Shown here piece by piece: positions 43,345-63,828 of a stretch of DNA of 64,000 bases (positions are counted from its first letter, which is position 1; the number at the start of each line of letters is the position of its first letter). The DNA comes from Mycolicibacterium litorale (GTDB lineage: Bacteria; Actinomycetota; Actinomycetes; Mycobacteriales; Mycobacteriaceae), in assembly GCF_014218295.1 (NCBI RefSeq), contig NZ_AP023287.1, forward strand, positions 1,984,001-2,048,000, read 5' to 3'. The position numbers and the translations under genes were made by a program. The notes beneath the pieces are model-generated. The model worked only from the letters and a program-made list of their open reading frames with translations. It was not told the DNA's origin and did no database searches.

Positions 43345-43370
43345 GTTACAAACAACGCCCAAAGCGTCAG
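43345..43370. promoter_or_regulatory. Island regulatory element 1 (degenerate)
   Basis: On the plus strand it reads GTTACA-N14-CGTCAG, a weaker copy of TTTACA-N14-TGTCAC. On the minus strand it supplies TGTAACGCT exactly 6 nt before the aldehyde dehydrogenase ATG. The rest of the 43336-43496 gap shows nothing convincing. Confidence 0.5.
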
Positions 43371-43496
43371 GCGAATCGCGGAAATAGCGTTCTCCGAATC
43401 CGAGGTGGCGATTCTCCTTGTCTCCGTCGGACTCGAACCCGACCCGCGCGGAACACGCCAACGCCGCAAAGCCCACCCGAGCCAGGGCGGTGTCGT

Positions 43497-44051
43497 CTAG
43501 TCCTGGTTCTTGATGCCGACCGCGTGGCGCAACTGGGCGAGGAACTCGTCTCCGTCGTCACTGCGCACGATGTAGTGACACACCGCGACGCGGATCGCCG
43601 TGGCGGCCTTGACCGCGGCATTGGGCCCCGACAGCAGCTTCTCCAGGCGCGCCCGCATCAGCGGGATGATCCGCGACAACTGCGCGATGACCACCTCGGG
43701 TTCGATGTCGACGAGCCGGACACCCGAGTAGGACTGCTGGTAGGAAACGATGAATCTCAGCGCGGCATCGAGTTTCTCGGTACCCCGCAGACCCTGGGTG
43801 GCCTTGCTGATGCCCTGGTCGAACATCGACCGCTCGTAGCGGCCGAACGCGTCGAGCAACTCCTGTTTGGAGGCGAACCAGCGGTACAGCGTCGGCCGTG
43901 ACACCCCCGCCTGCAGCGCGACCTCCGACAGGCTCAGCTTCGTCTGGCCGCTGCGCCCGAGCACCTCGGCGGTGGCCGCGAGGATGCGGTGCTGCGTCGA
44001 CGAATCGTCGTATTCGGCGGCGTCGCGCCGGGCGGTCAGTGGTTCGTTCAC
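43497..44051 (-). CDS. TetR-family transcriptional regulator (paralogue 1)
   Basis: A repressor of about 184 residues. The N-terminal HTH is RILAATAEVLGRSGQTKLSL followed by SEVALQAGVSRPTLYRWFAS; the rest is the helical ligand domain (FIVSYQQSYSGVRLVDIEPE). It is clearly paralogous to the TetR protein at 46531-47070: the recognition helix SRPTLYRWF is identical and about 27 of 33 residues around it match. GTG 44051 was chosen because it has GAGG 8 nt upstream and gives an N-terminus like the paralogue; a TTG at 44084 would be longer. It probably controls neighbouring catabolic genes; the ligand is unknown. Confidence 0.9.
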   Translation of the reverse strand: MNEPLTARRDAAEYDDSSTQHRILAATAEVLGRSGQTKLSLSEVALQAGVSRPTLYRWFASKQELLDAFGRYERSMFDQGISKATQGLRGTEKLDAALRFIVSYQQSYSGVRLVDIEPEVVIAQLSRIIPLMRARLEKLLSGPNAAVKAATAIRVAVCHYIVRSDDGDEFLAQLRHAVGIKNQD

Positions 44052-44139
44052 GTCCAGGGCCTCGAGTGATCGGATGTTCCACAAATCGTAGAGCCTGTAA
44101 TGCCGCGTCGGGGCATCCGCAGGGTCCGGCCGTCGCGAA

Positions 44140-45273
44140 TCACAGCGATTTCTTCAGCAGCGCCACCGTGTCGAGGTCCTTCAGCGCGGCCACACCCCGT
44201 CGCAGCCCCTCGTACGCGATGTTCTCGTCCTGCATGCCGCCCAAGCCTGCGGTGATGAGCGCGGCGACATAGGCGTAGAGCGCGGCCTGGCGGTACCGGT
44301 GCCACAGTTGCTCGCGGTCGAGATCCGGACCGCCCGCGGCGACGAGTGCACGGCGGTACGTGTCGAGCAGCTCGCGTTGCGATTCCTGTCGGGCCGCCGG
44401 GGTCATCCCGGTGACCAGGGTGTACGCCAGTTCGCGGCTGGGATGTCCGCGGCGGATCGCCTGCCAGTCGAGCAATCCGGCGGCGCCGTTGCGGAAGTAG
44501 AGGTTCCCGGGGTGGGCGTCGCCGTGCATGATCGTGTGCGGCGGTTCGTCGATCAACTGCGCGGCGGCGCGGTAGTTGGCGTCGATGTAGCCGCCCTGGT
44601 GCACCGCGATGTCGGTGCGTTCGGCCACCCGCCGTGCCGACGCCGTCAGCAGGCGTCCGGTCAGCATGGACGTGTGGTCGGCCGACGCGGAGTAGACCCA
44701 CCCCAGCGGGCCGCCGCCGGAGGACGGCAGCCGGCCCCAGAACGTCGCGTGCAGGCGCGCCAGGAGTTCGACGACCGACGCCGCCTCGTCACGGGTCAGC
44801 GGGTGGAGCGTGTCGGGGAAGCGGCATTCGGCCACCGGCAGGTCCTCGAGCACCAGGACGTAGCGGCCGGTGAGACGGTCGAACGCCGAACCGTACGGCA
44901 TCGGCGCCCCGCTGAGTTCCGGACGCAACTGCCGGTAGAACCGCACCTCGGTGTCGCCGAGCCGGCCGAGTTCGCCCATGAGCCGCGTCGCCACCGTCCG
45001 GGCCGGCAGCTTGACGAATACTGTGGGCGGAACGCCGTCACCGGTCAGCGCCAGCCGGGCCCGCGACGAGGTGCCGGCGTCCGCGCCGACGACCGAGACC
45101 GAGGTGACCGTGCGGTTCATCAGACGTGACAGTGCCGGTGCGTCGAGGTCGGCGACCGAGCGGGGGAACGCCCGCATCCGCCGCAGCGCGGCGTCGGTCG
45201 CCACCCGCTGCAGGCCACGCCCGAGATGGGCGGCCAGGCCCGCGGCGGGCGAAATACGCAGCGTCGTCGTCAC
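44140..45273 (-). CDS. Phosphotransferase (aminoglycoside/ecdysteroid kinase-like fold)
   Basis: A 377-residue protein with the APH/choline-kinase fold. The catalytic loop IMHGDAHPGNLYFR and the metal motif GLLDWQAI are intact, and VLVLEDLPVAECRF precedes. These enzymes phosphorylate hydroxyl groups of small molecules; some relatives are found beside CoA-transferases and acyl-CoA dehydrogenases in sterol or terpenoid breakdown clusters. GTG start with GAGGAG about 10 nt upstream. It is divergent from the CoA-transferase gene, with a perfect TTTACA/TGTAAA palindrome in the gap. Confidence 0.82.
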   Translation of the reverse strand: MTTTLRISPAAGLAAHLGRGLQRVATDAALRRMRAFPRSVADLDAPALSRLMNRTVTSVSVVGADAGTSSRARLALTGDGVPPTVFVKLPARTVATRLMGELGRLGDTEVRFYRQLRPELSGAPMPYGSAFDRLTGRYVLVLEDLPVAECRFPDTLHPLTRDEAASVVELLARLHATFWGRLPSSGGGPLGWVYSASADHTSMLTGRLLTASARRVAERTDIAVHQGGYIDANYRAAAQLIDEPPHTIMHGDAHPGNLYFRNGAAGLLDWQAIRRGHPSRELAYTLVTGMTPAARQESQRELLDTYRRALVAAGGPDLDREQLWHRYRQAALYAYVAALITAGLGGMQDENIAYEGLRRGVAALKDLDTVALLKKSL

Positions 45274-45310
45274 CGATGCGAGTCTCCTCGGGGCACCATG
45301 CTGAGATGAG

Positions 45311-45336
45311 TTTACAAAGAAGCTTCAGACTGTAAA
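45311..45336. promoter_or_regulatory. Island regulatory element 2 (perfect palindromic ends)
   Basis: TTTACA-N14-TGTAAA, the only copy whose two ends are exact reverse complements. It is centred in the gap between the divergent kinase-like and CoA-transferase genes. No fixed 6-nt start distance here; both genes have ordinary leaders. Confidence 0.65.
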
Positions 45337-45368
45337 TCAGTTTCCGCTCACGTCAAACAGGAGGGTCG

Positions 45369-46538
45369 ATGCCGGGACCGCTGGACGGTGTCAAGGTCGT
45401 CGAACTGGGGGTGTGGGTCGCCGCCCCGGCCACGGGCGGAATCCTCGCCGACTGGGGTGCGGACGTCATCAAGGTGGAACCGCCGTCCGGGGATCCGGCG
45501 CGGACGTTCGGGCGGATGCTCGGACTCGACGACGAGGTGAACCCGCCGTTCGAGATGGACAACCGGTCAAAGCGCAGTGTCGTGGTCGATCTCACCGACG
45601 AGAACGGGCAGCGGGTGATGCACGAGCTGCTCAGCGCCGCAGATGTTTTCGTGACGAATGTGCGCCCCCTCGCGTTGCGCCGCCTCGGGCTGGATTTCGA
45701 GACGGTCGCCACCGGCAATCCCCGGCTCGTCTACGGGTTGATCACCGGGTACGGCATGGTGGGACCCGACGCCGACCGGGCCGCCTACGACGTGGCCGCG
45801 TTCTGGGCCCGCGCGGGGCTGGCGCATCTGCTCACCCGTCCCGGTGAGGATCCGCCGTTCCAACGCGGCGGGATGGGCGACCACACGGTGGGGATGACGC
45901 TCGCCGCCGCGGTGTGTGCGGCGCTGGTGTCGCGCGCCACCACGGGCGCCGGTCAGCTCGTGACGACCTCGCTGTACCGACAGGGCGTCTACACGGTCAG
46001 CTTCGACCTCAACACGTTCCTGCTCACCGGCCACCAGATCGCGATCGGCCGGCGGGAATCGATGGGCAACCCGTGTATGAACAACTACGCGGCCGGAGAC
46101 GGACGCCGGTTCTGGATCGTCGGGCTGGAGGGGGAGCGGCACTGGCCGGCGTTGTGCCGCACCGTCGGTCGTCAGGACTGGTTGACCGATGACCGGTTCG
46201 CCACCGGCCGATCGCGGGCGGTCAACGCCCACATCCTCATCGCGGAACTCGACGCCGTCTTCGCAACCCGGCCGCTGTCGGAGTGGGCGGAGGTCTTCGC
46301 GGCCGAACCGGACCTGTTCTGGTCGCCGATCAACACACTGGAGGACGTCGTCTCCGACGATCAGTTCCATGCCGCCGGGGGAGCCGTCTTCGTTCCCGAC
46401 GGCGACGGGACCATTCCCATGGTCGCCACGCCCGCCGACTTCCACGGCACACCCTGTGCGCCGCGCGCTGCCGCCCCGCGACTCGGTGCACACACCGGTG
46501 AGGTCCTGGCCGATCCCCGGTCGGCCTGGCTCAGCTGA
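45369..46538 (+). CDS. CoA-transferase family III (CaiB/BaiF type), island copy
   Basis: A 389-residue CaiB/BaiF enzyme. PLDGVKVVELGVWVAAPATG, GADVIKVEPPSGDPAR, FVTNVRPLALRRLGL and the presumed catalytic Asp in DRAAYDVAAFWARAGL are standard. It would activate a pathway acid with CoA taken from another thioester. AGGAGGG lies 5 nt before the ATG. The end overlaps the convergent TetR paralogue 2 gene by 8 nt. It is distinct in sequence from the CoA-transferase at 2956-4173. Confidence 0.9.
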   Translation: MPGPLDGVKVVELGVWVAAPATGGILADWGADVIKVEPPSGDPARTFGRMLGLDDEVNPPFEMDNRSKRSVVVDLTDENGQRVMHELLSAADVFVTNVRPLALRRLGLDFETVATGNPRLVYGLITGYGMVGPDADRAAYDVAAFWARAGLAHLLTRPGEDPPFQRGGMGDHTVGMTLAAAVCAALVSRATTGAGQLVTTSLYRQGVYTVSFDLNTFLLTGHQIAIGRRESMGNPCMNNYAAGDGRRFWIVGLEGERHWPALCRTVGRQDWLTDDRFATGRSRAVNAHILIAELDAVFATRPLSEWAEVFAAEPDLFWSPINTLEDVVSDDQFHAAGGAVFVPDGDGTIPMVATPADFHGTPCAPRAAAPRLGAHTGEVLADPRSAWLS

Positions 46539-47070
46539 CCGCTTCGCCGTCGGTGACGCCGGCGGCATGACGCAGCTGCGCCAGGAAGTCGTCGGCGTCG
46601 TCGCTGCGCACCAGATAGTGCGAGATCGCCACCCGCACAGCGGTCGACGCTGCGACGGCGGCATCGGGACCGGCCATGCCGCGCTGCAACCGGTCGCGCA
46701 TGCGCGGCAGGATGCGCGACAGCCGCGCGATGACCTGTGCGGGTTCGATGTCGACCATGCGCAGACCCGGATAGGACTGCTGGTAGGAGACGATGATGCG
46801 CAGTGCCGCGTCGAGTCGCTCGTCTGCAGGCAGCTCCGCGGCCGCGGATGCGACGGCGCGCTCGTAGATGGAGCGTTCCCACACCACGAAGGCGGCCAAC
46901 AGATCCTGCTTGGACGGGAACCAGCGGTAGAGGGTGGGGCGCGACACCCTGGCCTGCGCGGCCACCTGCGAGAGGCTCAGCTTCGTCATCCCGTTGCGGC
47001 CGAGCACTTCCGCGGTGGCGGCGAGGATCCGCTCTCGGGTGGTGGCCTCGTCGCCCGACACCGTCGTCAT
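46531..47070 (-). CDS. TetR-family transcriptional regulator (paralogue 2)
   Basis: A 179-residue TetR repressor: ERILAATAEVLGRNGMTKLS, then the HTH SQVAAQARVSRPTLYRWFPS and a ligand domain with IVSYQQSYPGLRMVDIEPAQ. Close paralogue of 43497-44051, with the same recognition helix, so both may read the same operator. The ATG lies exactly 6 nt after TGTAAAGCT, the minus-strand end of regulatory element 3, so the gene is probably leaderless and autoregulated through the site it shares with the divergent P450 gene. Confidence 0.92.
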   Translation of the reverse strand: MTTVSGDEATTRERILAATAEVLGRNGMTKLSLSQVAAQARVSRPTLYRWFPSKQDLLAAFVVWERSIYERAVASAAAELPADERLDAALRIIVSYQQSYPGLRMVDIEPAQVIARLSRILPRMRDRLQRGMAGPDAAVAASTAVRVAISHYLVRSDDADDFLAQLRHAAGVTDGEAVS

Positions 47071-47079
47071 CGTCGTAGC

Positions 47080-47108
47080 TTTACAAATTTTGCGACGACT
47101 GTCACGCT
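47080..47108. promoter_or_regulatory. Island regulatory element 3, shared divergent promoter
   Basis: TTTACA (47080-47085), N14, TGTCACGCT (47100-47108). CACGCT is 17 bp from TTTACA, ideal for a -35/-10 pair, and ends 6 nt before the P450 GTG. On the other strand TGTAAAGCT ends 6 nt before the TetR ATG. One element thus seems to serve both genes. Confidence 0.75.
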
Positions 47109-47114
47109 GGATCG

Positions 47115-48368
47115 GTGACCTCCCCATCAGCGGCGGCCCGCGAGTACAGCTCGGTCGACATCACCTCGTCGTCGTTCTGGCAGCAGCCGTTCGGCCGGCG
47201 GGACAGCACGTTCGCGCAGTTGCGTGCGGCGGACGGGCTGAGCTGGCATCACCCGCTGTCCTCGCTGTTCCCGGTGGAGGAGGCCGGCTTCTGGGCGGTC
47301 ACCCGCCGCGCCGACATCGTGTTCGTCAGCCAGCACCCCGAACTGTTCACCTCCGCACAGGGAGTCGCGCTGGATCCGATGCCGGCCGACGTGCAGCGGT
47401 TCGCATCGTTCTTCCTCACCATGGACCCGCCCGAGCACACCGTGTACCGGCGGCTGATCAGTTCCGCGTTCACCCCGCGCAATGTGCGCCGGATCGAAGA
47501 GCAGATCCACGACAACGCGGTCGCGGTCGTCGACGATCTGGTCGGTGCGGGTGAGCTCGATTTCGTCGCAGCGTGTTCGGCGCGCTTGCCGATGCTGACC
47601 ATCATGGAGATGCTCGGGGTGCCCGCCGCCGACCAGCCGGCCGTCGCCCAAGCCGCCGAGAAGCTGTTCTCCATGAGCGACGACGAGTACAGCACGCTCG
47701 AGGAACGGGCGGCGGATACGGTCAACGAGATCATGCTGCTGTCGGCCACCGGCGCGGAACTCGCCCAATTCCGGCGCAGCCACCCGGGAGACGATCTGAT
47801 GACCAGCATCGTCAACGCCGAGGTCGACGGAAAACGGTTGACCGACGAGGAGATCGGCGCGTTCCTGATCCTGCTGGCGTCGGCGGGTAACGACACCACG
47901 AAGCAGACGACGACGCACGCGATGCTGGCGCTGTCCGAGCACCCCGCCCAGCGCGAGTGGCTGATGGCCGACTTCGAAGGCCGCATCGGCACCGCGGTCG
48001 AGGAATTCGTCCGCTGGTCCACACCGGTCCTGCAGTTCGCGCGGTTCGCCACCACCGACACCGAGATCAACGGACAGCCGGTCAGCGCCGGCGACAAAGT
48101 GGGCCTCTTCTACTGTTCGGCCAACCGCGACGAAACGGTGTTCAGCGATCCGCACGGCTTCGACCTGAGCCGGTCGCCGAACCCGCATCTCGGCTTCGGT
48201 GGCGGCGGCCCGCACTTCTGCCTGGGTAGCCAACTGGCGAAAACCGAACTGCGGCATCTGTTCCGGGAACTGCTGACCCGACTGACCCACGTCGAGTTCG
48301 GCGAGCCCGACCTGCTGTACAGCACCTTCGTGCACGGCATCAAACGGCTCCCGGCCGTCGTCCGCTGA
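47115..48368 (+). CDS. Cytochrome P450 (CYP125/CYP142-like)
   Basis: A 417-residue soluble bacterial P450. I-helix ASAGNDTTKQ (acid-alcohol pair at about 260-261), ExxR at Glu297-Arg300, and the heme loop GFGGGGPHFCLGS with Cys369 as the iron ligand are intact. MDPPEHTVYRRLISSAFTPR matches the steroid- and fatty-acid-hydroxylating mycobacterial families CYP124/125/142. It would hydroxylate the substrate or its side chain using ferredoxin partners coded elsewhere. GTG start, 6 nt after CACGCT, indicates a leaderless mRNA. Confidence 0.92.
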   Translation: MTSPSAAAREYSSVDITSSSFWQQPFGRRDSTFAQLRAADGLSWHHPLSSLFPVEEAGFWAVTRRADIVFVSQHPELFTSAQGVALDPMPADVQRFASFFLTMDPPEHTVYRRLISSAFTPRNVRRIEEQIHDNAVAVVDDLVGAGELDFVAACSARLPMLTIMEMLGVPAADQPAVAQAAEKLFSMSDDEYSTLEERAADTVNEIMLLSATGAELAQFRRSHPGDDLMTSIVNAEVDGKRLTDEEIGAFLILLASAGNDTTKQTTTHAMLALSEHPAQREWLMADFEGRIGTAVEEFVRWSTPVLQFARFATTDTEINGQPVSAGDKVGLFYCSANRDETVFSDPHGFDLSRSPNPHLGFGGGGPHFCLGSQLAKTELRHLFRELLTRLTHVEFGEPDLLYSTFVHGIKRLPAVVR

Positions 48369-50439: not shown

Positions 50440-50468
50440 TTTACAAAACACGCGACAAGTGTCACGCT
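50440..50468. promoter_or_regulatory. Island regulatory element 4, shared divergent promoter
   Basis: TTTACA (50440-50445), N14, TGTCACGCT (50460-50468), then 6 nt to a GTG at 50475 that opens a 12-codon leader ORF of the big plus-strand operon. In the other direction TGTAAAGGC lies 5 nt from the SMP-30 GTG. Confidence 0.75.
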
Positions 50469-50474: not shown

Positions 50475-50513
50475 GTGCCACTGTCAACCACCTGCGGCGT
50501 TGGCGCGCCATGA
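50475..50513 (+). CDS. 12-residue leader peptide of the monooxygenase operon
   Basis: GTG 50475 lies exactly 6 nt after CACGCT, as at the other leaderless genes of the island. The ORF (MPLSTTCGVGAP) ends in a TGA that overlaps the ATG of the next gene (ATGA at 50510-50513). No Shine-Dalgarno precedes that ATG, so the leader would deliver ribosomes to it. Leaderless small ORFs of this kind are known in mycobacteria; this one is new to me. Confidence 0.5.
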   Translation: MPLSTTCGVGAP

Positions 50514-51214
50514 AGAAGTACCACAGCCACACACTGCTGTACCTCCACGAGACGATCGCGCTGGGATCGGGTCGGTCCGACCGGTTCACCGAACGCTTCA
50601 GCGCCGTCTACCACCCCATGATGACCGACCTCGGTGCCAGGCTGTTCGCCATCTGGGAGACCACACCGTACAACGGGCACTGGCCGCAGGTCACGATCAT
50701 CTGGGAGATCGACGCCTTCGCCGACTACGCCCGTATCGGCAAGGCGCAGGGCAGAGGCGGCAGCCACGCCGGACCCGCGGCGGCGTGGGCGGAGTTCCTC
50801 GCCGAGACAGGGGCCAGCGGCGAGGGCCGGATCATGTACGCCGGACGGAGCAACCGCACGCTGGCACAGCTGCAGGAGGCGGAATTCGGTGCGGGACTGG
50901 TGATCCAAGAGGTGATGCAGACCAAACCGGGCCGGCAGGACGACTACATCCGCGAATTGGAACGACTCTACGTGCCGTGGTCCGAGCGCACCGGCAAGCG
51001 GTGGCTGGGCTCCTTCATCACGACGTTCCGGTTCAACGAGGTCATCCATTACTGGGCGCTCGACGGCGAGTGGGACTGCTTCGCCGAGCACTACCCGTCG
51101 TGGAAGGACAGCCCGCCCGCGGAGATCGTCACCTGGATGAGCGTCGCGCCCGCGTTGCGCGACGGTTGGGAGGACTCCATCCTGGCCGCGCTACCACCGT
51201 CGCCGCTGCAGTGA
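50510..51214 (+). CDS. Duplicated dimeric alpha/beta-barrel (NIPSNAP-like) protein
   Basis: A 234-residue protein I cannot name with confidence. It contains two similar halves, each with a strand, a long helix and strands ending in Trp-rich segments: LYLHETIALGSGRSDRFTER ... VTIIWEIDAFADYA and VIQEVMQTKPGRQDDYIREL ... VIHYWALDGEWDCFAEHYPS. This is the ferredoxin-like alpha/beta-barrel pattern of NIPSNAP, EthD and monooxygenase-type helper proteins. First full gene of the operon, and it overlaps the P450 start (GTGA). Possible roles are a cofactor-free oxygenase, an isomerase or a ligand-binding partner of the P450. Confidence 0.7.
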   Translation: MKKYHSHTLLYLHETIALGSGRSDRFTERFSAVYHPMMTDLGARLFAIWETTPYNGHWPQVTIIWEIDAFADYARIGKAQGRGGSHAGPAAAWAEFLAETGASGEGRIMYAGRSNRTLAQLQEAEFGAGLVIQEVMQTKPGRQDDYIRELERLYVPWSERTGKRWLGSFITTFRFNEVIHYWALDGEWDCFAEHYPSWKDSPPAEIVTWMSVAPALRDGWEDSILAALPPSPLQ

Positions 51215-52467
51215 ACGCCGGCGGGAAGACCCCGGTGAAGCACCGGTTCTCCTACGATCCGTTCGACGCGGCCGTGATGGCCGATCCGCTGCCGTTCTAT
51301 CGGACGCTGCGCGACGAACACCCCCTCTATTACGTGCAGAGGTGGGATACCTACGCACTGTCGCGGTTCGCCGACATCTGGGACGTGCTCGCAATCAACG
51401 ACGGAACGTTCGTCGCCTCCGAGGGCACGCTGCCGTCGTCGGCCGTGCTCGCCACCCACAACACCGGGCCGGTGCCGGATCCACCGTTGTCCCCCATGCC
51501 CTTCCATGCCAACTTCGACGCACCGGTCTACACCGACGTGCGGCGCTGCACCTCGGGTCCCTTCCGGTCGCGGTCGGTGAGCCGGCTGGTCGACAGAGTC
51601 CGGGAACTGGCCAACGAACGCCTCGACGAACTGCTGCCGCGCGGGCGGTTCGACCTCACCCAGGATTACGGTGGAATGGTGGCCGCCGCGATGGTGTGCG
51701 AGCTGATCGGGCTGCCCACCGAACTGGCCCCTGAGGTGTTGGCCACCGTCAATGCCGGCAGCCTCGCCCAGCCCGGGAGCGGAGTCGAGGTGGCCAACGC
51801 CCGGCCGGGCTACCTCGAGTACCTGCGGCCGGTGGTCGAACGCCGACGCGCCGACCGGTCCGTCTCCGCGCTGGCGATCGTGGACGCCCTGCTCGCGTAC
51901 CGCAAACCCGACGGCACGCCGCTGACGGACACGGAGGCCGCCGTGCAGATGCTCGGAGTCTTCATCGGCGGGACGGAGACCGTGCCCAAGATCGTCGCCC
52001 ACGGACTGTGGGAACTCGGCCGGCGACCCGATCAGATGGCGCAGGTGCGTGCGGATCCGGCGGCGACCGTCCCGTTGGCCCGCGAGGAGATGATCCGCTA
52101 CTGCGCGCCCGCGCAGTGGTTCGCCCGCACGGTGCGCAGGCCCTTCACGATTCACGGCACCACCATCGAGCCGGGGCAGCGCATCATCACACTCCTGGCG
52201 TCGGCGAACCGCGACGAGCGGGAGTATCCGGATCCCGACGAATTCGTCTGGGACCGGCGGATCGAACGCCAGCTGGCATTCGGCCGCGGCCAGCACTCCT
52301 GCCTCGGGGTCCATCTGGCACGCCTGGAGATCACCGTCATGGTCACCGAATGGCTCAGGCGGGTCGCGGATTTCAGCGTCGACACCGAGCACGCGTCGCG
52401 CCCGCCGTCGAGTTTCCAGTGGGGCTGGAACCGCCTGCCCGTGCACGTCGAGGTGGAGGGCGTCTGA
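51211..52467 (+). CDS. Cytochrome P450, operon copy
   Basis: A 418-residue P450 of a different family from the one at 47115. The I-helix is FIGGTETVPK (Glu-Thr acid-alcohol pair), ExxR is Glu293-Arg296, and the heme loop AFGRGQHSCLGVH holds Cys364. N-terminal SYDPFDAAVMADPLPFYRTL is typical for soluble bacterial P450s. GTG overlaps the previous stop by 4 nt. It would supply the alcohol that the dehydrogenase encoded next oxidises. No ferredoxin or reductase gene is in the window. Confidence 0.92.
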   Translation: MNAGGKTPVKHRFSYDPFDAAVMADPLPFYRTLRDEHPLYYVQRWDTYALSRFADIWDVLAINDGTFVASEGTLPSSAVLATHNTGPVPDPPLSPMPFHANFDAPVYTDVRRCTSGPFRSRSVSRLVDRVRELANERLDELLPRGRFDLTQDYGGMVAAAMVCELIGLPTELAPEVLATVNAGSLAQPGSGVEVANARPGYLEYLRPVVERRRADRSVSALAIVDALLAYRKPDGTPLTDTEAAVQMLGVFIGGTETVPKIVAHGLWELGRRPDQMAQVRADPAATVPLAREEMIRYCAPAQWFARTVRRPFTIHGTTIEPGQRIITLLASANRDEREYPDPDEFVWDRRIERQLAFGRGQHSCLGVHLARLEITVMVTEWLRRVADFSVDTEHASRPPSSFQWGWNRLPVHVEVEGV

Positions 52468-52468
52468 C

Positions 52469-53437
52469 GTGTGGGCGTATCGGCTGGTGGCCCCGTACAC
52501 CTTCGAGAAGCGGCAACTGCCCGAACCGACGGCCCGAGGACTGGGCGACGGCCAGGTGCTGCTGCGGTTCCTGGCGGCGGGGATCTGTGGGAGCGATCTG
52601 CCCGGATTCCGCGGTGCCAAGGGGCGGCTACCCGGCGACACCGGGGCCAGCGCCGCCGAGATGGACGGCTTTCCCGTCCACGAGATCACCGGTGAGGTGG
52701 TGGCGAGCAGGCATCCGGCGCACCAGCCGGGGGACCGGGTGGTCGGATGGGCCTCGGGGTTCGACGGTCTGATGCAGTTCGTCGTGGCCGACGGCGAAGG
52801 GCTGGGCTCCTACGATGCCGCGCTGGCGCCACACCGCGCCGTCGCACTGCAGCCGCTGGCCTGCGTGCTCTACGCGGTCGAACAACTGCCCGACCTCAGC
52901 GGCCGCCACGTGGCGGTCATCGGTCAGGGGTCGATCGGTGTGCTGTTCTCCTATGTCGCGAAAACCGCGGGCGCCCGGCGGGTTACGGGCGTCGATCCGA
53001 TCGACCGCAGCGCGTTCGGGACGGCATTCGGCGTCGACACCGCCGTCCGGGCGTCCAGTGACCGATGGGTCAGTCATCTGGGCGCCGAGGACCGGCCGGA
53101 TGTGGTGGTCGAAGCCGTCGGCCACCAGGTGGCCACCCTCAACCACGCGATCGAGGCCGTCGCGCCCGGCGGTACGGTCTTCTACTTCGGTGTTGCCGAC
53201 GACGACACCTACCCGATCAGCATGCGGCTGATGCTTCGTAACAACCTGACGCTCAAATCCGGTGTCACACTGGAGCGTAGGCGCATGCTCGCGCGGGCTG
53301 GCGACTTCGCACGCGACCATCCCGACCTCCTGCCCACCTACGTGACCCACACGTTCGGCGTCGACGAGGTGCAGGCGGCCTTCGAACTGGCATCCCGGCC
53401 GACCCCCTGCCGGGTCAAGATCGCGATCACCGCATGA
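52469..53437 (+). CDS. Zinc-dependent alcohol dehydrogenase (MDR superfamily)
   Basis: A 322-residue medium-chain dehydrogenase. Catalytic zinc ligands are likely Cys in AAGICGSDLPGF, His-Glu in FPVHEITGEVV and Cys in QPLACVLYAVE. The cofactor motif is HVAVIGQGSIGVLF, and the Asp after TGVDP suggests NAD. The four-Cys structural zinc loop is missing. It starts 1 nt after the P450 stop and its end overlaps the aldolase start (ATGA). Oxidation of the P450-made alcohol to a ketone is the natural reading. Confidence 0.88.
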   Translation: MWAYRLVAPYTFEKRQLPEPTARGLGDGQVLLRFLAAGICGSDLPGFRGAKGRLPGDTGASAAEMDGFPVHEITGEVVASRHPAHQPGDRVVGWASGFDGLMQFVVADGEGLGSYDAALAPHRAVALQPLACVLYAVEQLPDLSGRHVAVIGQGSIGVLFSYVAKTAGARRVTGVDPIDRSAFGTAFGVDTAVRASSDRWVSHLGAEDRPDVVVEAVGHQVATLNHAIEAVAPGGTVFYFGVADDDTYPISMRLMLRNNLTLKSGVTLERRRMLARAGDFARDHPDLLPTYVTHTFGVDEVQAAFELASRPTPCRVKIAITA

Positions 53438-54225
53438 GCGCCCGCGGCCCACTGCGTGACGTGCTCGACGGGGGCGCGCCGGTCTTCGGCGGGTGGGTGG
53501 TCGGCCCGACCGTCATCGGACCCGAGGAGTTCGCGGCCGCCGGCTACGACTACGTCGGCATCGACCTGCAGCACGGGTACCTCGACGACGCCGATGCCGC
53601 GCTACTGCTGCGCCGACTCGAGCACGTACCCGTCGCCACCGTCGTGCGACTGCCCACCGCCCACGCCGCACCGATCGGCCGCGTGCTCGACGCCGGCGCC
53701 GACGCGGTGGTCGTCGCGATGGTCGAGTCGGCCGACGAGGCGGCGGCCGCGGTCGCAGCCACCCGGTATCCGCCGGCCGGGATACGCAGCTTCGGACCGC
53801 TGCGGGCGAGTCTCGGCCACGATCCGGCCGAACTGGAGGACAGGGTCGGCGTGTTCGCGATGGTCGAGACCGTTCGGGGAGTCGCCCACCTCGCGGAGAT
53901 CTGCGCGGTACCGGGCCTGAGCGGGTTGTACGCCGGGCCCGCCGACCTGGCCGTCTCGATGGGATACGAGCCGGCGTCCGCATGGCGCCGGGAGGAGGTG
54001 TGCGCCGCCATGGCCGAGATCGTCACCGCGGCGCACACCGCCGGTCTGGTGGCCGGGGTGCACGCAGGCACGGGTGCCGCCGGACGCCAGGCGGCGCATC
54101 TCGGTTTCAGGATGATCACCCTCGCATCGGAATCACAGGCTCTGCGGCGCGGTGCGCAGATGCACCTGGCCGAGGCGAGAGCCACCGCACCACCCGACAC
54201 GTCGACGGACGGGGGATACCGGTGA
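53434..54225 (+). CDS. HpcH/HpaI-family aldolase
   Basis: A 263-residue class II (metal-dependent) aldolase. YDYVGIDLQHGYLDDADAAL, VVRLPTAHAAPIGRVLDAGA and FAMVETVRGVAHLAEICAVP (the Glu is a metal ligand) match 2-keto-3-deoxy-type/4-hydroxy-2-oxo aldolases; GLYAGPADLAVSMG is the oxoacid-binding stretch. In the usual QHGxxD segment, His-Gly is present. It would split a late ring-cleavage product into pyruvate or another oxoacid plus an aldehyde. It overlaps both neighbours by 4 nt. Confidence 0.88.
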   Translation: MSARGPLRDVLDGGAPVFGGWVVGPTVIGPEEFAAAGYDYVGIDLQHGYLDDADAALLLRRLEHVPVATVVRLPTAHAAPIGRVLDAGADAVVVAMVESADEAAAAVAATRYPPAGIRSFGPLRASLGHDPAELEDRVGVFAMVETVRGVAHLAEICAVPGLSGLYAGPADLAVSMGYEPASAWRREEVCAAMAEIVTAAHTAGLVAGVHAGTGAAGRQAAHLGFRMITLASESQALRRGAQMHLAEARATAPPDTSTDGGYR

Positions 54226-54944
54226 GCCGGGTGGCGCTGGTGACGGGTGCGGCGCGCGGACAGGGCGCGGCGATCGTCGCGCGGTTGCACGCCGACGGCT
54301 TCCGGGTGGCCGCCTGCGACGTCCGGTTCGACGAACTGCGCAGCACCGTAGGAGATCTCGGCGACGCGGTGCTCCCGATCCGGATGGACGTCACCTCACC
54401 GCAGCAGTGGGCGGACGCGGTCCGCGACACCGTCGCGCGGTTCGGTGCGCTCACCACCCTGGTGAACAACGCGGGCATCCTGCACCGGGCCGCGATCGCC
54501 GACGAGACCCCGGCCGGCTTCGAGAGCAGTTGGCGCGTGAACTGTCTTGGACCGTTCCTCGGCATCCAGGCGGTGACGGAGCACCTGACCGGCGTCGACG
54601 GCGCGGCGATCGTCAACACCTGCAGCACAGGCGCGATCCGTCCGTTCCCGCACCATGCGGCGTACGGCTCCGCGAAGTGGGCGCTGCGCGGGCTGACCCA
54701 GGTGGCGGCCGCCGAACTCGCGTCGTCGGGGATCCGGGTCAACGCCGTGTTCCCCGGACCGGTGCAGACACCGATGCTCGACCCGCAGACGCAGAGCCGG
54801 CTCGCGGCCGCCGCGACGCTGGGCCGGATCGGCAGGCCGGGCGAGATCGCCGACGCGGTGGCGTTCCTGGTCTCGGAGCAGGCGTCGTTCATCACCGGTG
54901 CCGAACTCGTCGTCGACGGCGGCCAGACCCTGCAGATCGGATGA
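54222..54944 (+). CDS. Short-chain dehydrogenase/reductase
   Basis: A 240-residue classical SDR. Cofactor motif TGAARGQG, NNAG, catalytic Ser (NTCSTGAIRPF) and Y-x3-K (AAYGSAKWALRGL) are intact, and the end FITGAELVVDGGQT is typical. Asp in AACDVRFDEL after strand 2 favours NAD(H). It interconverts an alcohol and ketone of the pathway. Starts with GTGA overlap, ends with ATGA overlap. Confidence 0.92.
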   Translation: MSRVALVTGAARGQGAAIVARLHADGFRVAACDVRFDELRSTVGDLGDAVLPIRMDVTSPQQWADAVRDTVARFGALTTLVNNAGILHRAAIADETPAGFESSWRVNCLGPFLGIQAVTEHLTGVDGAAIVNTCSTGAIRPFPHHAAYGSAKWALRGLTQVAAAELASSGIRVNAVFPGPVQTPMLDPQTQSRLAAAATLGRIGRPGEIADAVAFLVSEQASFITGAELVVDGGQTLQIG

Positions 54945-56455
54945 GTGCGTTGGCCGAATCGTTGTCCGTGGCGGTCATCGGCGCCGGTCCCGGCGGGCTC
55001 GCGCTGGGGATCTTCCTGAAGAAGGCCGGATTCGAGGACTTCACGATCTTCGACCGGGAGGACGGCGTCGGCGGGACCTGGCGCATCAACACCTATCCGG
55101 GCCTGGCCTGTGACGTGAAATCGCACCTGTACTCGTACTCGTTCGACCTCAACCCGAACTGGTCGCGGTTGTGGTCGGGGCAGCCGGAGATCCTCGAGTA
55201 CTTCGAGACATGCGCACGCCGCCATCACCTCGGCGCCCACCTGAGGCTGCGGACCGAGATCGTCTCCGCCCGTTGGGACGGCGCGTCGCGGCAGTGGGAC
55301 CTGCGCACCGCCCACGGGCAGCGGTACCGCTTCGACGTCGTGGTCTCCGCGGTCGGGATGTTCACCCGACCGGTCATGCCGGACCTGGTCGAGGAGGAGC
55401 CGTTCACCGGTGTGGTGATGCACACCGCGCGGTGGGACCATTCGGTGGACCTGACAGGTCTCAAGGTGGCGGTGCTGGGAACCGGTTCGACTGCGGCGCA
55501 ACTGCTTCCGGAGGTCGCCAAGGTCGCGGCCACGGTGTACTCGGTGCAGCGGTCGCCGACCTGGATTCTGCCCAAGCCGGACCGTCCGTACAGCGACCGC
55601 GAGAAGTGGCTGTTCGCCCACGTCCCCCTGGCCAGACGCGTCTACCGCGCGCGGCTGTGGCTGCGCAGCGAGCGCAACATCTCGGTCATCGAGCACGGCA
55701 GCGACAAGACCCGGGAGTTCACGGACATCGCCACCCGGGTCCTGGAGGCGACGGTGGCCGACCAGCAGTTGCGGCGCGCACTGACCCCCACGCACCCGTT
55801 CGGGTGCAAGCGACTGGTGTTCGCCACCGACTACCTGCAGACGCTCACCCACCCGCATGTCCAGGTCGTGTCCAGCGCCGCCCGCGCCCTTCGCGCTCGG
55901 TCACTGGTGACCGAGGACGGGACCGAACTCGACGTCGACGTGGTGCTGTGTGCCACCGGTTACGCCGCCGCCGACTACCTCGGCCAGATCGAGGTGGTCG
56001 GCGAAGACGGTGCCCTGCGGGAGAAGTGGCGTGGCGGCGCGTACGCCTACCTGGGGATGACGGTCCCCGGATTCCCGAACTTCTTCATGCTCTACGGCCC
56101 GAACACCAACGTCGGGTCCAACAGCGTCATCTTCATCCTGGAAGCACAGGCCCGTTACATCGTGCGGGCGCTCACACACATGCGGCGCAGGGGCCGATCG
56201 TATCTCGCGGTGCGGCCGCAGACCATGGTCGACTACCTCGCCAAGATCGACCGGTGGATGGTGGGGACCGTCTGGACCACTCGGTGCAGCAACTACTTTC
56301 GCGCCGCCAACGGCCGTGTGGTCACCCAGTGGCCGCGCAGTGCCCGCGCGTTCTGGTCGATGACGCGGCGGTTCCGTGCCGCGGACTACACCTTCGACCC
56401 ACCCGCACACCTGCCGCCGATCGACGTGCATTCCCACCCGACGGCGGACCGATGA
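54941..56455 (+). CDS. Flavin-containing Baeyer-Villiger-type monooxygenase
   Basis: A 504-residue class B flavoprotein monooxygenase. FAD motif VIGAGPGGLALG near the N-terminus, NADPH motif VLGTGSTAAQLLPE in the middle, and between them FTGVVMHTARWD, which fits the Baeyer-Villiger fingerprint F-x-G-x3-H-x3-W-(P/D). GVGGTWRINTYPGLACDVKS is the usual Trp-rich block. Expected reaction: a ketone plus O2 and NADPH gives an ester or lactone. With an upstream P450 and dehydrogenase and a downstream esterase, this is the classic route for opening alicyclic rings. ATGA overlaps at both ends. Confidence 0.92.
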   Translation: MSALAESLSVAVIGAGPGGLALGIFLKKAGFEDFTIFDREDGVGGTWRINTYPGLACDVKSHLYSYSFDLNPNWSRLWSGQPEILEYFETCARRHHLGAHLRLRTEIVSARWDGASRQWDLRTAHGQRYRFDVVVSAVGMFTRPVMPDLVEEEPFTGVVMHTARWDHSVDLTGLKVAVLGTGSTAAQLLPEVAKVAATVYSVQRSPTWILPKPDRPYSDREKWLFAHVPLARRVYRARLWLRSERNISVIEHGSDKTREFTDIATRVLEATVADQQLRRALTPTHPFGCKRLVFATDYLQTLTHPHVQVVSSAARALRARSLVTEDGTELDVDVVLCATGYAAADYLGQIEVVGEDGALREKWRGGAYAYLGMTVPGFPNFFMLYGPNTNVGSNSVIFILEAQARYIVRALTHMRRRGRSYLAVRPQTMVDYLAKIDRWMVGTVWTTRCSNYFRAANGRVVTQWPRSARAFWSMTRRFRAADYTFDPPAHLPPIDVHSHPTADR

Positions 56456-56871
56456 CCCACGACACGAGGAGCACACCACCCATGACGATCCCCGGTCCGC
56501 ACATCTCACGCCGTATCCAAGGTGTCATGGGCGCGCTCATGCTGCTCGTCGGAGTCGTCGGCACGGTGACACCGCGACGGTTGAGCACCGCGTCGGCACC
56601 ACCTGCGGGTGCGGACGCTGCCGCGCAACGGGACCACCTGACCCAGATGTACTCGATGCGGGAAGCCGCGCTGGGGACGATCCTGCTCAGCGGCGCGGGC
56701 GTTGAGGCGGTGCTGGGCGCCACGATCGGCCTCACCGCCGTGGAGGTGGCCACCGCCCTGCGGTCGCCCGCGCTGGATCGGCGGGCCCGGATCACCACGG
56801 TGCTCAGCGCGTCCGTGTTCGGGGCGGCCGCGGCGTATGCGCTGAGCGGAGCGAGAACCAAGGTCCGTTGA
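56452..56871 (+). CDS. Small membrane protein of the monooxygenase operon
   Basis: A 139-residue protein with three or four hydrophobic helices: GVMGALMLLVGVVGTVTPRR, REAALGTILLSGAGVEAVLG (with TIGLTAVEVATAL) and VLSASVFGAAAAYALSG. It has no family I recognise; the first ten residues are polar, and a start at ATG 56482, preceded by GAGGAG, is possible. It sits between the monooxygenase and esterase genes with 4-nt overlaps on both sides (start ATGA, stop TTGA). A transport or membrane-docking role for the pathway is only a guess. Confidence 0.7.
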   Translation: MTHDTRSTPPMTIPGPHISRRIQGVMGALMLLVGVVGTVTPRRLSTASAPPAGADAAAQRDHLTQMYSMREAALGTILLSGAGVEAVLGATIGLTAVEVATALRSPALDRRARITTVLSASVFGAAAAYALSGARTKVR

Positions 56872-57791
56872 CCCCCACCCAGGACGTCGAGTCGCGGCTG
56901 CACCCCGCGCTGAGGCGGTTCGCCGCGGCCCGCACCGACCTGTCGCCGGGAAACCTCGGCTTCGTGCGGGAATCGCTCGACGACCGGCGACGCGAGAGTG
57001 CGGCGGCGCTCGACGTGGCCGGTGTCGAGATCACCGAGGATCGGGCACGGTCCGGGCGGTCCGCGGTGGGCGTGCGGGTCTACCGCGGCGGAGCCGGCCC
57101 GGCGCCCGCGGTGGTGTACTGCCATTCCGGCGCCTTCGTGCTGGGCAACCTCGACACCGATCACCTGCAGTGCGTGCAGTTCGCCCGGCGCGCCGAGTGC
57201 ACCGTCGTCTCCGTCGACTACCGGCTGGCGCCCGAACACCCGTATCCCGCCGCCGTCGAGGACGTGATGACCGCGCTGCGCTGGGTCGCCGCGAAATCAG
57301 CCCTCCTGCAGGTGGATCCGTCGCGTATCGCGGTCGCCGGCAGCAGCGCCGGCGCGGCACTGGCGGCGCTGTCGGCTCAGGCGGCCGCCACGGGGTCCGC
57401 GCCGCCCGTGGTGTTCCAGCTTCTGCACCAACCCGTCCTGGACGACCGGCCGACTCCCTCGCGCCACGAGTTCACCACGACCCCGGGGTTCGACGGCGCC
57501 GCCGTCGAGCAGATGTGGCGTCACTACCGTCCCGCGGACGGCGCGGTGCCTGCCCGCAGCACCGGCCTCACGGGTCTGCCGCCCGCATTCCTCAGCTGCT
57601 CCGAACTCGACCCGTTACGCGACGAAGCCCTCGACTATGCACGGCGCCTGCTCGCCGCCGGCGTGTCGACCGAACTCCACCTGTTCTCGGGCACATGCCA
57701 CGGGTTCGACTCGCTGCTGCCGGATTGGGACACCAGCCGACGGCTTTTCGACCTGCAGACGGCCGCGCTGAGGCGGGCGCTCCACGACTGA
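56868..57791 (+). CDS. Alpha/beta-hydrolase, hormone-sensitive-lipase (HSL) family esterase
   Basis: A 307-residue esterase. The oxyanion segment YCHSGAFVLGN replaces the usual HGGGF with HSGAF; nucleophile Ser is in AGSSAGAALAAL, Asp in CSELDPLRDEAL and His in GTCHGFDSLLP. VVSVDYRLAPEHPYPAAVED is the family signature. TTG start overlaps the previous stop (TTGA). It is the last gene of the operon and would hydrolyse the ester made by the Baeyer-Villiger enzyme. Confidence 0.88.
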   Translation: MTPTQDVESRLHPALRRFAAARTDLSPGNLGFVRESLDDRRRESAAALDVAGVEITEDRARSGRSAVGVRVYRGGAGPAPAVVYCHSGAFVLGNLDTDHLQCVQFARRAECTVVSVDYRLAPEHPYPAAVEDVMTALRWVAAKSALLQVDPSRIAVAGSSAGAALAALSAQAAATGSAPPVVFQLLHQPVLDDRPTPSRHEFTTTPGFDGAAVEQMWRHYRPADGAVPARSTGLTGLPPAFLSCSELDPLRDEALDYARRLLAAGVSTELHLFSGTCHGFDSLLPDWDTSRRLFDLQTAALRRALHD

Positions 57792-58329: not shown

Positions 58330-58358
58330 TTTACAGACAGCCGCCGCAATGTCACGCT
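58330..58358. promoter_or_regulatory. Island regulatory element 5, shared divergent promoter
   Basis: TTTACA (58330-58335), N14, TGTCACGCT (58350-58358), then 6 nt to the ATG of the acyl-CoA dehydrogenase. The minus-strand end is TGTAAAGGT, facing the SRPBCC gene. Confidence 0.75.
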
Positions 58359-61491: not shown

Positions 61492-62161
61492 GCGGCAGTT
61501 CCGCCACGACGTCGGCACGCGCCGGATCGAAGCTGAAACAGCCTGCGAGAGAAGCTGATTCCGCCAATGGCTGCGCATACGACCAGGCGACGTCGTCCAC
61601 CACGGCGCCGTCGACGACCGCCGACCAGTACGTCGCCCAACCCTTGTAGTTGCAGTAGCTGGTGGTGGCGCTCGGGTGGAGCACATCCACCCGGACCTGG
61701 GCCGGATCGACGTAGAGCACCGGTGGCAGCGCGGTCTCGAACACCACCACGGTGTGCGTCGTGTCGACCAGCACGGTGCCTCCCACGCTGACACGCAGCG
61801 CGCGGTCGGCCGGCCGGCAGTCCACGCGGTGGTAGGGGTTCGGTGGGTAGTGGACCAGTTCGCGGCCTTCTTCGAACCACGTGTCCACCGCATCCCACGG
61901 CACGTAGACGTATCCCGGCGCCTCCGCGGCGGGCGTGGCGGGCAGATCCCCGACGGCGCTGCTGCGGAAGGCGTAGCTCAGCGGATGCCCGCGGCGGTGC
62001 ACCATGACCACGTCGTCGGTGTCGAGGACGGTGCGGCCCGCGCGCACCGCCACCACCCGTCGCCGGTGAGGTTCGGCATAGACCGCGCCGTCGGGCAGCG
62101 GTGGGACGAACCACCCGGCGGGGTCGGCACTGAGCGGACCGCGTCCGGCGGTGAGTGTCAT
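61478..62161 (-). CDS. DUF427 protein with two tandem domains
   Basis: A 227-residue protein with two DUF427 domains: the first around VYAEPHRRRVVAVRAGRTVL, then PGYVYVPWDAVDTWF; the second around ALRVSVGGTVLVDTTHTVVV with the family motif SYCNYKGWATYWSA. The fold is small and beta-rich and the function is unknown, although DUF427 genes are common beside redox and monooxygenase genes in actinobacteria. ATG start. The upstream gap holds element 6. Confidence 0.85.
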   Translation of the reverse strand: MTLTAGRGPLSADPAGWFVPPLPDGAVYAEPHRRRVVAVRAGRTVLDTDDVVMVHRRGHPLSYAFRSSAVGDLPATPAAEAPGYVYVPWDAVDTWFEEGRELVHYPPNPYHRVDCRPADRALRVSVGGTVLVDTTHTVVVFETALPPVLYVDPAQVRVDVLHPSATTSYCNYKGWATYWSAVVDGAVVDDVAWSYAQPLAESASLAGCFSFDPARADVVAELPLNSP

Positions 62162-62194
62162 CCTGCGCTCCTCGGGCGATGCTCCGGCTCGTGG

Positions 62195-62220
62195 TTGACA
62201 AACTACCGCTTCGGTGTCAC
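62195..62220. promoter_or_regulatory. Island regulatory element 6
   Basis: TTGACA-N14-TGTCAC, one base away from the main form at the left end. It lies between the divergent DUF427 and WS/DGAT genes (34 bp and 94 bp from their starts); neither start is at the leaderless distance. Confidence 0.6.
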
Positions 62221-62313
62221 GTCACCCGCCGCCGGGCGGGTACGCACCGGGCGGCGGCCGGCGGGCTGACGTGACACAGTGTGTGAGACGAACCAGTCGG
62301 GGGCACACCATCG

Positions 62314-63771
62314 GTGACGACGACGGACGGGGGACGTGTGAAGCGACTCAACGGCGTCGACGCGCTGATGCTCTACAGCGAGACGCCCGAGATCCACATG
62401 CACACGCTGAAGGTCGGCGTACTCGACATCTCCGACGTGGCCGGCGGATACACCCGCGACCTCGTCCGCAAGGTGGCCGCACCGCGGCTTCTGGCGCTGT
62501 CGCCGTTGCGCCGCCGGCTCGTCGAGATCCCCGGCCGGGTGCACCATCCGATGTGGGTGCAGAACCCGACCATCGACTTCGACTATCACCTGCGCTTCGT
62601 CGAGGTGCCCGCACCGGGTGGCCGCCGCGAACTCGACGAGCTGATCGGCCGGATCGCGAGCACCCCGCTCGACCGGTCGAGACCGCTGTGGGAGATGTAC
62701 GTCGTCGAGGGCCTGGTGGGTGACCGCATCGCGATCGTGCACAAGGTGCACCACGTCCTTGCCGACGGGGTGGCGTCGGCCAATCAGATGTCTCGGGTCA
62801 TCTCACCGGAGGGCCCGGCGCCGTGCGAGGACGACGCGGCCGGCGACAGCGGACACACCCCGGCGGGGCTGCTGCGCTCGGCGGCCGACGACCACCTCCG
62901 GCAGATCGGCCGGCTACCCGCACTGTTGCGTGACACCGCGGCGGGGGTGTCGCAGGTGTACCGCAGGGGACGCGAGCGCGGGGCCCATCCGGATCTGGCG
63001 CGCAATTTCGCGCCGCCGCGCACGTTCCTCAACCATGTCGTCAGCCCGGCGCGCCGCTTCGCCACCGCGCCCGTCGCGCTCGCCGACGCCAAACTCCTCG
63101 CCCGCACCCTCGGTGTCACGCTCAACGACATCGTGCTGGCGACCGCCGCGGGCGCCCTGCGCGAGCTGCAGCTGCGTTACGACGGATACGCCGACGCACC
63201 GCTCATCGCCGGTGTGCCGATCGCCTTCAACACCTCGCCGGACCGGCTGTCGGGCAACGAGTTCTCGTACATGACACCGTCGCTGCCCGTGCATGTCGAC
63301 GATCCGCTGGAGAGGGTGCGGTTGACGTCGCTGGCGACGCGGATCGCCAAGGAGAACCACCACCTCCTCGGTCCCACCCTCATCGCGTCGTGGCTGAACT
63401 ATCTGCCGCCGCGCCTCGTCCCGCCCGTGTTCCGGTGGCAGGCGCAGCGGCGCGAGTCCAGCATGATCATGAACCTGACCATCTCCAATGTTCCGGGCCC
63501 ACGCGAACTGGGGCTGGTGGCGGGCGCATCCGTCGACGAGATCTACTCCGTCGGCCCGCTGGTGGTCGGCAGCGGGATGAACATCACCGTGTGGAGCTAC
63601 GTCGACCAGTTGAGCATCTCGGTGCTCACCGACGACCGGACCCTCGAGGATCCGCACGAGGCGACCGATGCGATGGTGCGCTCGTTCGCCGGGATCCGCG
63701 CGGCCGCGGGGATCGACGGACCGCTCACCGACGTGCCCGCGGCACTACCCCTCGCTGTCGCCGCCCTCTGA
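62314..63771 (+). CDS. Wax ester synthase/diacylglycerol acyltransferase (WS/DGAT)
   Basis: A 485-residue acyltransferase of the mycobacterial Tgs family, joining acyl-CoA to diacylglycerol or to an alcohol. The catalytic motif H-H-x3-D-G is in HKVHHVLADGVA. KRLNGVDALMLYSETPEIHM at the N-terminus, PLWEMYVVEGL, LNDIVLATAAGALREL and NLTISNVPGPRE are family blocks. GTG 62314 is the longest start; GTG 62338 (just before KRLNGVDAL) is equally plausible. It may store or detoxify pathway acids or alcohols as neutral lipid. Confidence 0.9.
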   Translation: MTTTDGGRVKRLNGVDALMLYSETPEIHMHTLKVGVLDISDVAGGYTRDLVRKVAAPRLLALSPLRRRLVEIPGRVHHPMWVQNPTIDFDYHLRFVEVPAPGGRRELDELIGRIASTPLDRSRPLWEMYVVEGLVGDRIAIVHKVHHVLADGVASANQMSRVISPEGPAPCEDDAAGDSGHTPAGLLRSAADDHLRQIGRLPALLRDTAAGVSQVYRRGRERGAHPDLARNFAPPRTFLNHVVSPARRFATAPVALADAKLLARTLGVTLNDIVLATAAGALRELQLRYDGYADAPLIAGVPIAFNTSPDRLSGNEFSYMTPSLPVHVDDPLERVRLTSLATRIAKENHHLLGPTLIASWLNYLPPRLVPPVFRWQAQRRESSMIMNLTISNVPGPRELGLVAGASVDEIYSVGPLVVGSGMNITVWSYVDQLSISVLTDDRTLEDPHEATDAMVRSFAGIRAAAGIDGPLTDVPAALPLAVAAL

Positions 63772-63799
63772 CCGCACGCCGGAGCGACCGAACCGAGAC

Positions 63800-63828
63800 T
63801 TTACAGATCGCGACGATAGTGTCACGCT
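63800..63828 (+). promoter_or_regulatory. Island regulatory element 7
   Basis: TTTACA (63800-63805), N14, TGTCACGCT (63820-63828), identical in both key blocks to elements 3, 4 and 5. The next start codon (63862) is 33 nt away with CGGAG before it, so this gene should have a short leader. There is no divergent gene here. Confidence 0.7.

Follow-up and report, generated by a model that had tools for sequence, protein, structure and literature searches.

A predicted TetR-type operator, apparently combined with a leaderless promoter, recurs at mycobacterial catabolic loci

Introduction

KstR and KstR2 are TetR repressors of mycobacterial sterol catabolism that act through a palindrome. Here we compare such systems with a 64-kb stretch of the Mycolicibacterium litorale genome (contig NZ_AP023287.1, positions 1,984,001 to 2,048,000; "the window" below), in which a motif, TTTACA-N14-TGTCAC, stands repeatedly in the gaps of a catabolic island that also encodes two TetR-family regulators, TetR1 and TetR2. 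An earlier note had read the motif as the mark of an undescribed regulon. This observation is confirmed and was, if anything, understated: the motif appears to be a widely conserved TetR-type operator, apparently fused to a leaderless and sometimes bidirectional promoter. The TetR-regulated kind is already known, and the architecture is a variant of that kind.

The likeness to KstR and KstR2 lies in the predicted TetR control of a catabolic regulon through a palindrome, and a model of TetR2 matches KstR structures among many other TetR folds. However, the KstR structure was solved with an 18-bp operator, unlike the 32-bp dyad described here, and assignment to the KstR equivalog was rejected, as TetR2 and TetR1 score 35.5 and 22.7 bits, respectively, where the NCBIfam NF033703 cut-off is 280 bits. 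The best PDB sequence match of TetR1 is a TetR domain of Mce3R (6e-8) and a long operator is common to both, but Mce3R differs in that it is a fused double-TetR protein with 25-bp non-palindromic sites (PMC11667970). Regulators of the QacR type bind a 28-bp palindrome as a tetramer, according to part of PMC4482099; the likeness here is one of operator length, which suggests two dimers. The same part of that paper predicts motifs for 30 mycobacterial TetR regulators.

Another comparison is with the Rv0767c-type TetR, to whose orthologue a "motif X", found at mostly phytosterol-induced operons, has been assigned (a passage of PMC6593523). It too is a TetR beside an aldehyde dehydrogenase (of Rv0768 type) and cytochromes P450, with a palindromic operator, whereas its recognition region reads VAPATAYTYF as opposed to VSRPT-YRWF in the TetR1/TetR2 homologues. 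The regions bound by Rv0767c in chromatin immunoprecipitation (ChIP) are enriched for GAC and GTC (PMC10312376, in part). Among the matches listed in open-access text we recognised no paper describing the motif, with the sequence logos of PMC4482099 (Table 2) and PMC6593523 (Fig. 5) outside the comparison, and GTGACA, looked for in PMC5337628, returned nothing.

Motif copies in the window and across genomes

There are seven copies of TTTACA-N14-TGTCAC in the window, every one with a 14-bp spacer and every one between script-called genes, just where the earlier note had placed them. Four are exact (47080, 50440, 58330 and 63800), and it is these same four that are followed by GCT on the 3' side, again as reported. 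The 62195 copy has one mismatch (TTGACA), the 45311 copy two (TTTACA/TGTAAA), and the 43345 copy, which reads on the minus strand toward an aldehyde dehydrogenase gene, has three. The 45311 copy had been called a perfect palindrome, which is true of its arms but not fully of the whole 26-mer. Likewise, the claim that no copy occurs at 1-43 kb holds at up to two mismatches, while five matches are present there at three. The sites are as follows, position 1 being the first T of TTTACA:

43345..43370, minus strand: degenerate site for the aldehyde dehydrogenase, CTGACG-N14-TGTAAC-GCT; the ATG at 43335 is at position 36
44076..44101, minus strand: extra degenerate site upstream of tetR1, a three-mismatch match missed by the earlier note
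45311..45336, strand neutral: putative operator with palindromic arms, TTTACA-N14-TGTAAA, between a kinase (45273, minus) and a CoA-transferase (45369, plus)
47077..47108, strand neutral: symmetric putative operator/bidirectional promoter, AGC-TTTACA-N14-TGTCAC-GCT, between tetR2 and a P450 gene (P450a), axis at 47092.5
50440..50468, plus strand: putative operator-promoter of the oxygenase operon, divergent from an SGL lactonase (50431, minus)
58330..58358, plus strand: putative operator-promoter of an acyl-CoA dehydrogenase; the ATG at 58365 is at position 36
62195..62220, plus strand: weak site, TTGACA-N14-TGTCAC, between DUF427 (62161, minus) and WS/DGAT (62338, plus) genes
63800..63828, plus strand: putative operator-promoter of a hypothetical gene, leadered, with its ATG at 63862

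The exact motif is not found at random density: the 5.63-Mb genome holds only four exact copies, all on the same strand and all inside 17 kb of the window, and the extended motif with up to one mismatch returns the same four and no others. When the window was resampled 300 times with a first-order Markov model, the mean number of matches was 0 for exact copies (maximum 0), 0.03 at up to one mismatch and 0.63 at up to two, as compared to 4, 5 and 7 observed (the 7 counts the 45311 copy twice, since it matches both strands). At three mismatches the whole window has 15 matches against 10.6 expected, a number reached by 12 of 100 shuffles and not significant, and at up to two mismatches the genome as a whole is at background (46 matches versus 60 controls). 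The 45311 and 43345 copies are therefore not significant alone and must rest on conservation.

The contrast is larger across the genus. In a sample of 248 genomes, drawn evenly from a larger group, there are 803 exact copies in 197 genomes, whereas the reversed pattern, used as control, gives 20 in 18 genomes. What looks like a different conserved element, CTTGACA...TGTGA...TGTCACGCT, occurs in single copy in each of 18 genomes of genera g6 and g24 and was excluded from the counts.

Conservation at related loci

Related loci were collected by a scan for the NIPSNAP-like protein in named genomes, of which the best 80 of 193 relatives were retained; nearly all are from Mycobacterium or Mycolicibacterium, plus two from Aldersonia. 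The exact site is present in all 80 and recurs in the same divergent gaps, so the conservation at orthologous promoters on which the earlier proposal depended is found. Nearly all strand-hits of the site class (277 of 278, palindromic copies being counted twice) fall outside called genes. The gaps that most often hold them are lactonase/NIPSNAP in 57 loci, TetR2/P450 in 36, kinase/CoA-transferase (EcKL/CaiB) in 32, SRPBCC/acyl-CoA dehydrogenase in 27 and aldehyde dehydrogenase/TetR1 in 16. In the remaining 23 of the 80 no site precedes NIPSNAP by 260 bp or less, and the cluster order differs there.

The spacing is strikingly uniform. In the 80 loci a 14-bp gap separates TTTACA from TGTCAC in 208 cases, and no gap of 4-13 or 15-29 bp occurs; 20 matches to TTTACA-N30-TGTCAC are all NIPSNAP sites read into an upstream open reading frame (uORF) that begins GTG-TCA-C. 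TTTACA/TGTAAA pairs are found 50 times at 14 bp, twice at 7 and twice at 8.

Not all copies in the window are conserved to the same degree, and the reading of all seven as regulon members has to be qualified. The P450, NIPSNAP, acyl-CoA dehydrogenase and kinase/CoA-transferase sites are each kept in 5/5 nearest relatives, the counterpart of the 45311 copy being a class site in all five (one has TGTAAC instead of TGTAAA), and the 63800 site is kept in all four whose fetched stretch spans it. At the 43345 site the right half and the ATG at position 36 (37 in one relative) are kept in the window and the five nearest relatives, while the left half is degenerate. The extra site at 44076-44101 corresponds to a one-mismatch class site at the equivalent place in 5/5. 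The 62195 copy is weakly conserved, with a counterpart in only 2/5. This patchily conserved site (gap 62161-62338) may act on either neighbour, DUF427 or WS/DGAT, or may be in decay. A match at the start of a second aldehyde dehydrogenase gene (L049, L054) was set aside as a probable coincidence, as it overlaps the first codons of the gene.

Architecture of the element

In full, the element forms an imperfect inverted repeat of 32 bp, AGC-KTKACA-N14-TGTMAM-GCT, in which both halves read AGC-KTKACA; the extended consensus drawn from 202 distinct sites is A.C-TTTACA-AA-N9-AAG-TGTCAC-GCT. A start codon stands in a preferred register to it. Over 596 distinct site-directions, ATG or GTG is found exactly at position 36 in 59% of those flanked by GCT versus 8% of the others, and starts at positions 35-37 are present/absent in 243/63 directions with GCT and in 92/198 without it (p = 1e-32, indicative only, the rows being related sequences). 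The register is strictest at the NIPSNAP sites, where all 57 have GTG at position 36. P450 sites have their start at 36 in 36/53 cases, at 35 in 8 more and at 37 in 4, acyl-CoA dehydrogenase sites at 36 in 17/32, at 37 in 8 more and at 35 in 2. On the TetR side an upstream site is present at 55 genes, of which 37 have their start at 36 and one has it at 35; the other starts lie elsewhere and mostly have GAC in place of GCT among the matches listed. At 47080 both directions can be seen at once, as the dyad axis at 47092.5 lies midway between the ATG of tetR2 (47070, minus) and the GTG of the P450 gene (47115, plus).

The motif appears, from these regularities of sequence, to double as a core promoter with the start codon in fixed register. 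KTKACA (positions 1-6) would be the -35 box, and CACGCT or, on the other strand, AAAGCT (24-29) would be the -10 box. With the boxes so placed, the transcription start would fall on the start codon at position 36 and the mRNA would be leaderless. Leaderless mRNAs with a 5' ATG or GTG are described as a major feature of mycobacteria in part of PMC4633059. The motif as operator, which the earlier note had proposed, is thus only one side of the element; comparison supports it, but a core promoter seems to be laid over it, and start codons follow at a set distance.

The TetR regulators

Two regulators are encoded within the island:

43497..44051, minus strand: tetR1, TetR-family regulator of 184 aa, Pfam TetR_N 1.7e-12
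46531..47070, minus strand: tetR2, TetR-family regulator of 179 aa, Pfam TetR_N 3e-14; the ATG at 47070 is at the mirror position 36

TetR1 and TetR2 share 65% identity. The top 50 Foldseek matches of the TetR2 AlphaFold model (mean pLDDT 75.8) are all TetR-type structures, with TM 0.44-0.71 over the query. Both proteins thus have the TetR_N helix-turn-helix, and the model predicts the all-helical TetR fold for TetR2, so we assign both to the TetR family. In 29 aligned homologues the recognition region VSRPT-YRWF is invariant save for one position.

The link between these regulators and the motif was followed in the 248 genomes with a homologue threshold of E 1e-25 or better. TetR homologue and exact motif occur together in 196 genomes, the TetR only in 11, the motif only in one and neither in 40 (p = 7e-35, indicative only, since the counted sites are related and both linkage and common descent confound the co-occurrence). 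As linkage could explain much of this, the weight falls on split clusters, on a third paralogue and on the recognition region. Split clusters are found in four genomes (G004, G151, G053, G093), where TetR1-P450-NIPSNAP-P450 lies apart from the lactonase and the operon that runs from alcohol dehydrogenase to esterase, and sites are present at both loci. Each of these genomes has one TetR of the subfamily, with weaker TetR relatives (37-39%) near three of the TetR1 loci. Remote acyl-CoA dehydrogenase genes also retain the site (L241, L248, L249). Genes at unlinked loci were compared with the window proteins only.

The third paralogue, TetR3 (30 loci, L286-L315), is 52% identical to TetR1 and has a different neighbourhood. 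Its loci carry a dyad, TTTACAT-N12-ATGTMAM, with the same 6-14-6 geometry, at the 5' end of the gene in 29/30 and a second time, 0.6-1.5 kb on, in 23/30; in-frame starts are mostly at 34-37. TetR3 adjoins a gene that resembles, by eye, an alpha/beta hydrolase. Taken together, the constancy of site positions and spacer, the co-occurrence, the trans loci and the variant sites of a paralogue give good support, at the level of sequence comparison, to the regulon with TetR control that the earlier note had put forward.

Proposed mechanism and alternative explanations

We consider it very likely that the motif is a real switch, located where a set of breakdown genes begin and conserved in many mycobacteria, and that the TetR1/TetR2 sister pair is the most likely to control it. 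Probably a TetR subfamily (TetR1, TetR2 and paralogues) uses the motif as its operator, and a core promoter is fused with it. Bound to the dyad, TetR1 or TetR2 would hide the -35 and -10 boxes and repress the divergent genes together, tetR2 included, and their release would be brought about by a substrate of the pathway or a CoA-ester intermediate, so that the oxygenase, lactonase and CoA-dependent catabolic route is induced. The half-sites are 20 bp apart, i.e. about two helical turns, which points to two TetR dimers on each operator or to an unusual spacing; we favour two dimers. There is, in our estimate, an even chance that the picture holds in full, namely that one 32-bp inverted repeat supplies -35/-10 boxes on both strands, two leaderless starts equidistant from the axis and a seat for two TetR dimers that shut both directions, and that the operator moves through genomes as a unit with promoter and start codon, in fixed register.

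Several observations weigh against this interpretation. In tetO-type operators the half-sites are separated by roughly 10 bp, and the 20-bp separation seen here is atypical for a single TetR dimer; the copies had been described as what is expected for a TetR dimer site, which is right as to TetR control but too simple as to geometry. The mycobacterial -10 consensus is TANNNT and CACGCT would be a poor -10, as only the A and the last T fit. Fixed geometry is missing from the kinase/CoA-transferase sites (position 36 in 0/25 for the CoA-transferase and in 1/33 in the other set, which has ATG or GTG at 35 in 14/33), and the hypothetical-gene sites have a start at position 36 in 0/22 and GTG at 35 in 19/22. 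The conserved dyad is found at the regulators' own promoter and at target promoters, though not universally, a class site being absent immediately upstream of 53 of 108 TetR1/2 genes. The exact site is missing from eleven TetR-positive genomes: at their TetR loci there are one-mismatch class sites in G026 (two) and G196 (one), nothing closer than two-mismatch sites in G042 and none in the other eight, and genome-wide the relaxed pattern has matches in five of the eleven, all but one of the TTGACA type. Finally G241, a genome in one contig, has no subfamily TetR even at E 1e-12, yet it has two cluster-type sites. These are at G241:C1:1207284 and 1210699.

Among the alternatives, the one that survives best, although we regard it as unlikely, is that TetR1 and TetR2 are activators, or a repressor plus an activator, instead of plain repressors. 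Some TetR proteins do act as activators. One TetR-family activator is named for M. smegmatis in part of PMC4895335. Two paralogues on one operator class and the weak -10 would suit such a role, but the whole stretch from the presumed -35 to the -10 lies within the dyad, which speaks for occlusion.

It is quite unlikely that some other, unlinked regulator recognises the motif, with the TetR genes only clustered targets. G241, with sites and no subfamily TetR, is what this would predict, and linkage does confound the co-occurrence; however, TetR3, which has a different gene neighbourhood, carries the same dyad in diverged form in 29/30 loci, and the exact motif is missing from 40 of the 41 genomes without the TetR. 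As the comparison at unlinked loci covered window proteins only, a regulator of another kind may lie near the sites.

Improbable, too, is a promoter for an alternative sigma factor (e.g. of extracytoplasmic function type) with no repressor operator in it. The fixed distance to start codons, the consistent orientation in most gaps and the conservation of both ends, box-like, around a freer spacer would all be expected of a promoter. But the halves are mutual inverted repeats, AGC/GCT flanks included at the tetR2/P450 sites, no spacer of 13 or 15 bp occurs among the 80 loci, the pattern tracks the TetR subfamily and the TetR3 paralogue, and the kinase/CoA-transferase copies are palindromic, mostly without GCT and at a variable distance from the start codon.

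Identity with motif X, the Rv0767c operator, is very improbable and was rejected on the sequences of Rv0768-type loci, for although motif X is palindromic and lies near P450, alcohol and aldehyde dehydrogenase, short-chain dehydrogenase and tetR genes (the same passage of PMC6593523), and the aldehyde dehydrogenase of the window resembles Rv0768 (below the family cut-off), the Rv0768-type loci bear a different dyad, GGACA-N2-TGTCC, upstream of the aldehyde dehydrogenase in 30/30 fetched loci, the present class matches at up to two mismatches in just two of the 30 (L182, L193), which is background level, and TAA and TTA, the latter contained in TTTACA, are depleted from the regions that Rv0767c binds in ChIP (PMC10312376, in part). 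In these aldehyde dehydrogenase/TetR gaps (L170-L199), GGACA-N2-TGTCC is present in two copies in 29 and is likely the Rv0767c-type operator.

If the motif is a TetR operator-promoter, as we favour, it gives a large oxygenase/lactonase/CoA pathway a sharply delimited regulon, in which the operators are few and the candidate regulators two. With operator, promoter and start codon in a fixed register, it would be a clean case for studying how one sequence can serve both leaderless transcription and repressor binding, and the TetR3 paralogue with its diverged site would be a natural experiment in operator specificity.

Genes of the island and the NIPSNAP operon start

The remaining features of the island are:

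47115..48368, plus strand: P450a, a cytochrome P450 whose nearest solved structure is CYP268A2; its GTG is at position 36
50475..50513, plus strand: 12-codon uORF, putatively leaderless, with a stop that overlaps the NIPSNAP ATG (ATGA)
50482..50487, minus strand: TTGACA, putative -35 of the divergent lactonase promoter, read as TGTCAA at positions 43-48
50510..57791, plus strand: putative operon of NIPSNAP-like protein, a second P450 (P450b), zinc alcohol dehydrogenase, HpcH aldolase, short-chain dehydrogenase, Baeyer-Villiger-like flavin monooxygenase, a small open reading frame and esterase

The gene set suggests a route from a hydrophobic alcohol or ketone, given the P450s, alcohol dehydrogenase, Baeyer-Villiger-type monooxygenase, lactonase, esterase, aldehyde dehydrogenase, CoA-transferase and acyl-CoA dehydrogenase.

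The start of the oxygenase operon has an arrangement of its own. The GTG at position 36 opens a separate short uORF in 56 of the 57 site-bearing NIPSNAP loci, and in the remaining one (L128) NIPSNAP itself starts there. In 19 of the 57 the stop of the uORF and the start of NIPSNAP overlap by a one-base shift, as in the window, and in 23 the stop lies five bases ahead of that start. TGTCAA at positions 43-48 is kept in 56/57 sites, and the serine codon is TCA in 56/56, which indicates that the constraint acts on the DNA; TGTCAA is plausibly the -35 box of the divergent lactonase promoter.

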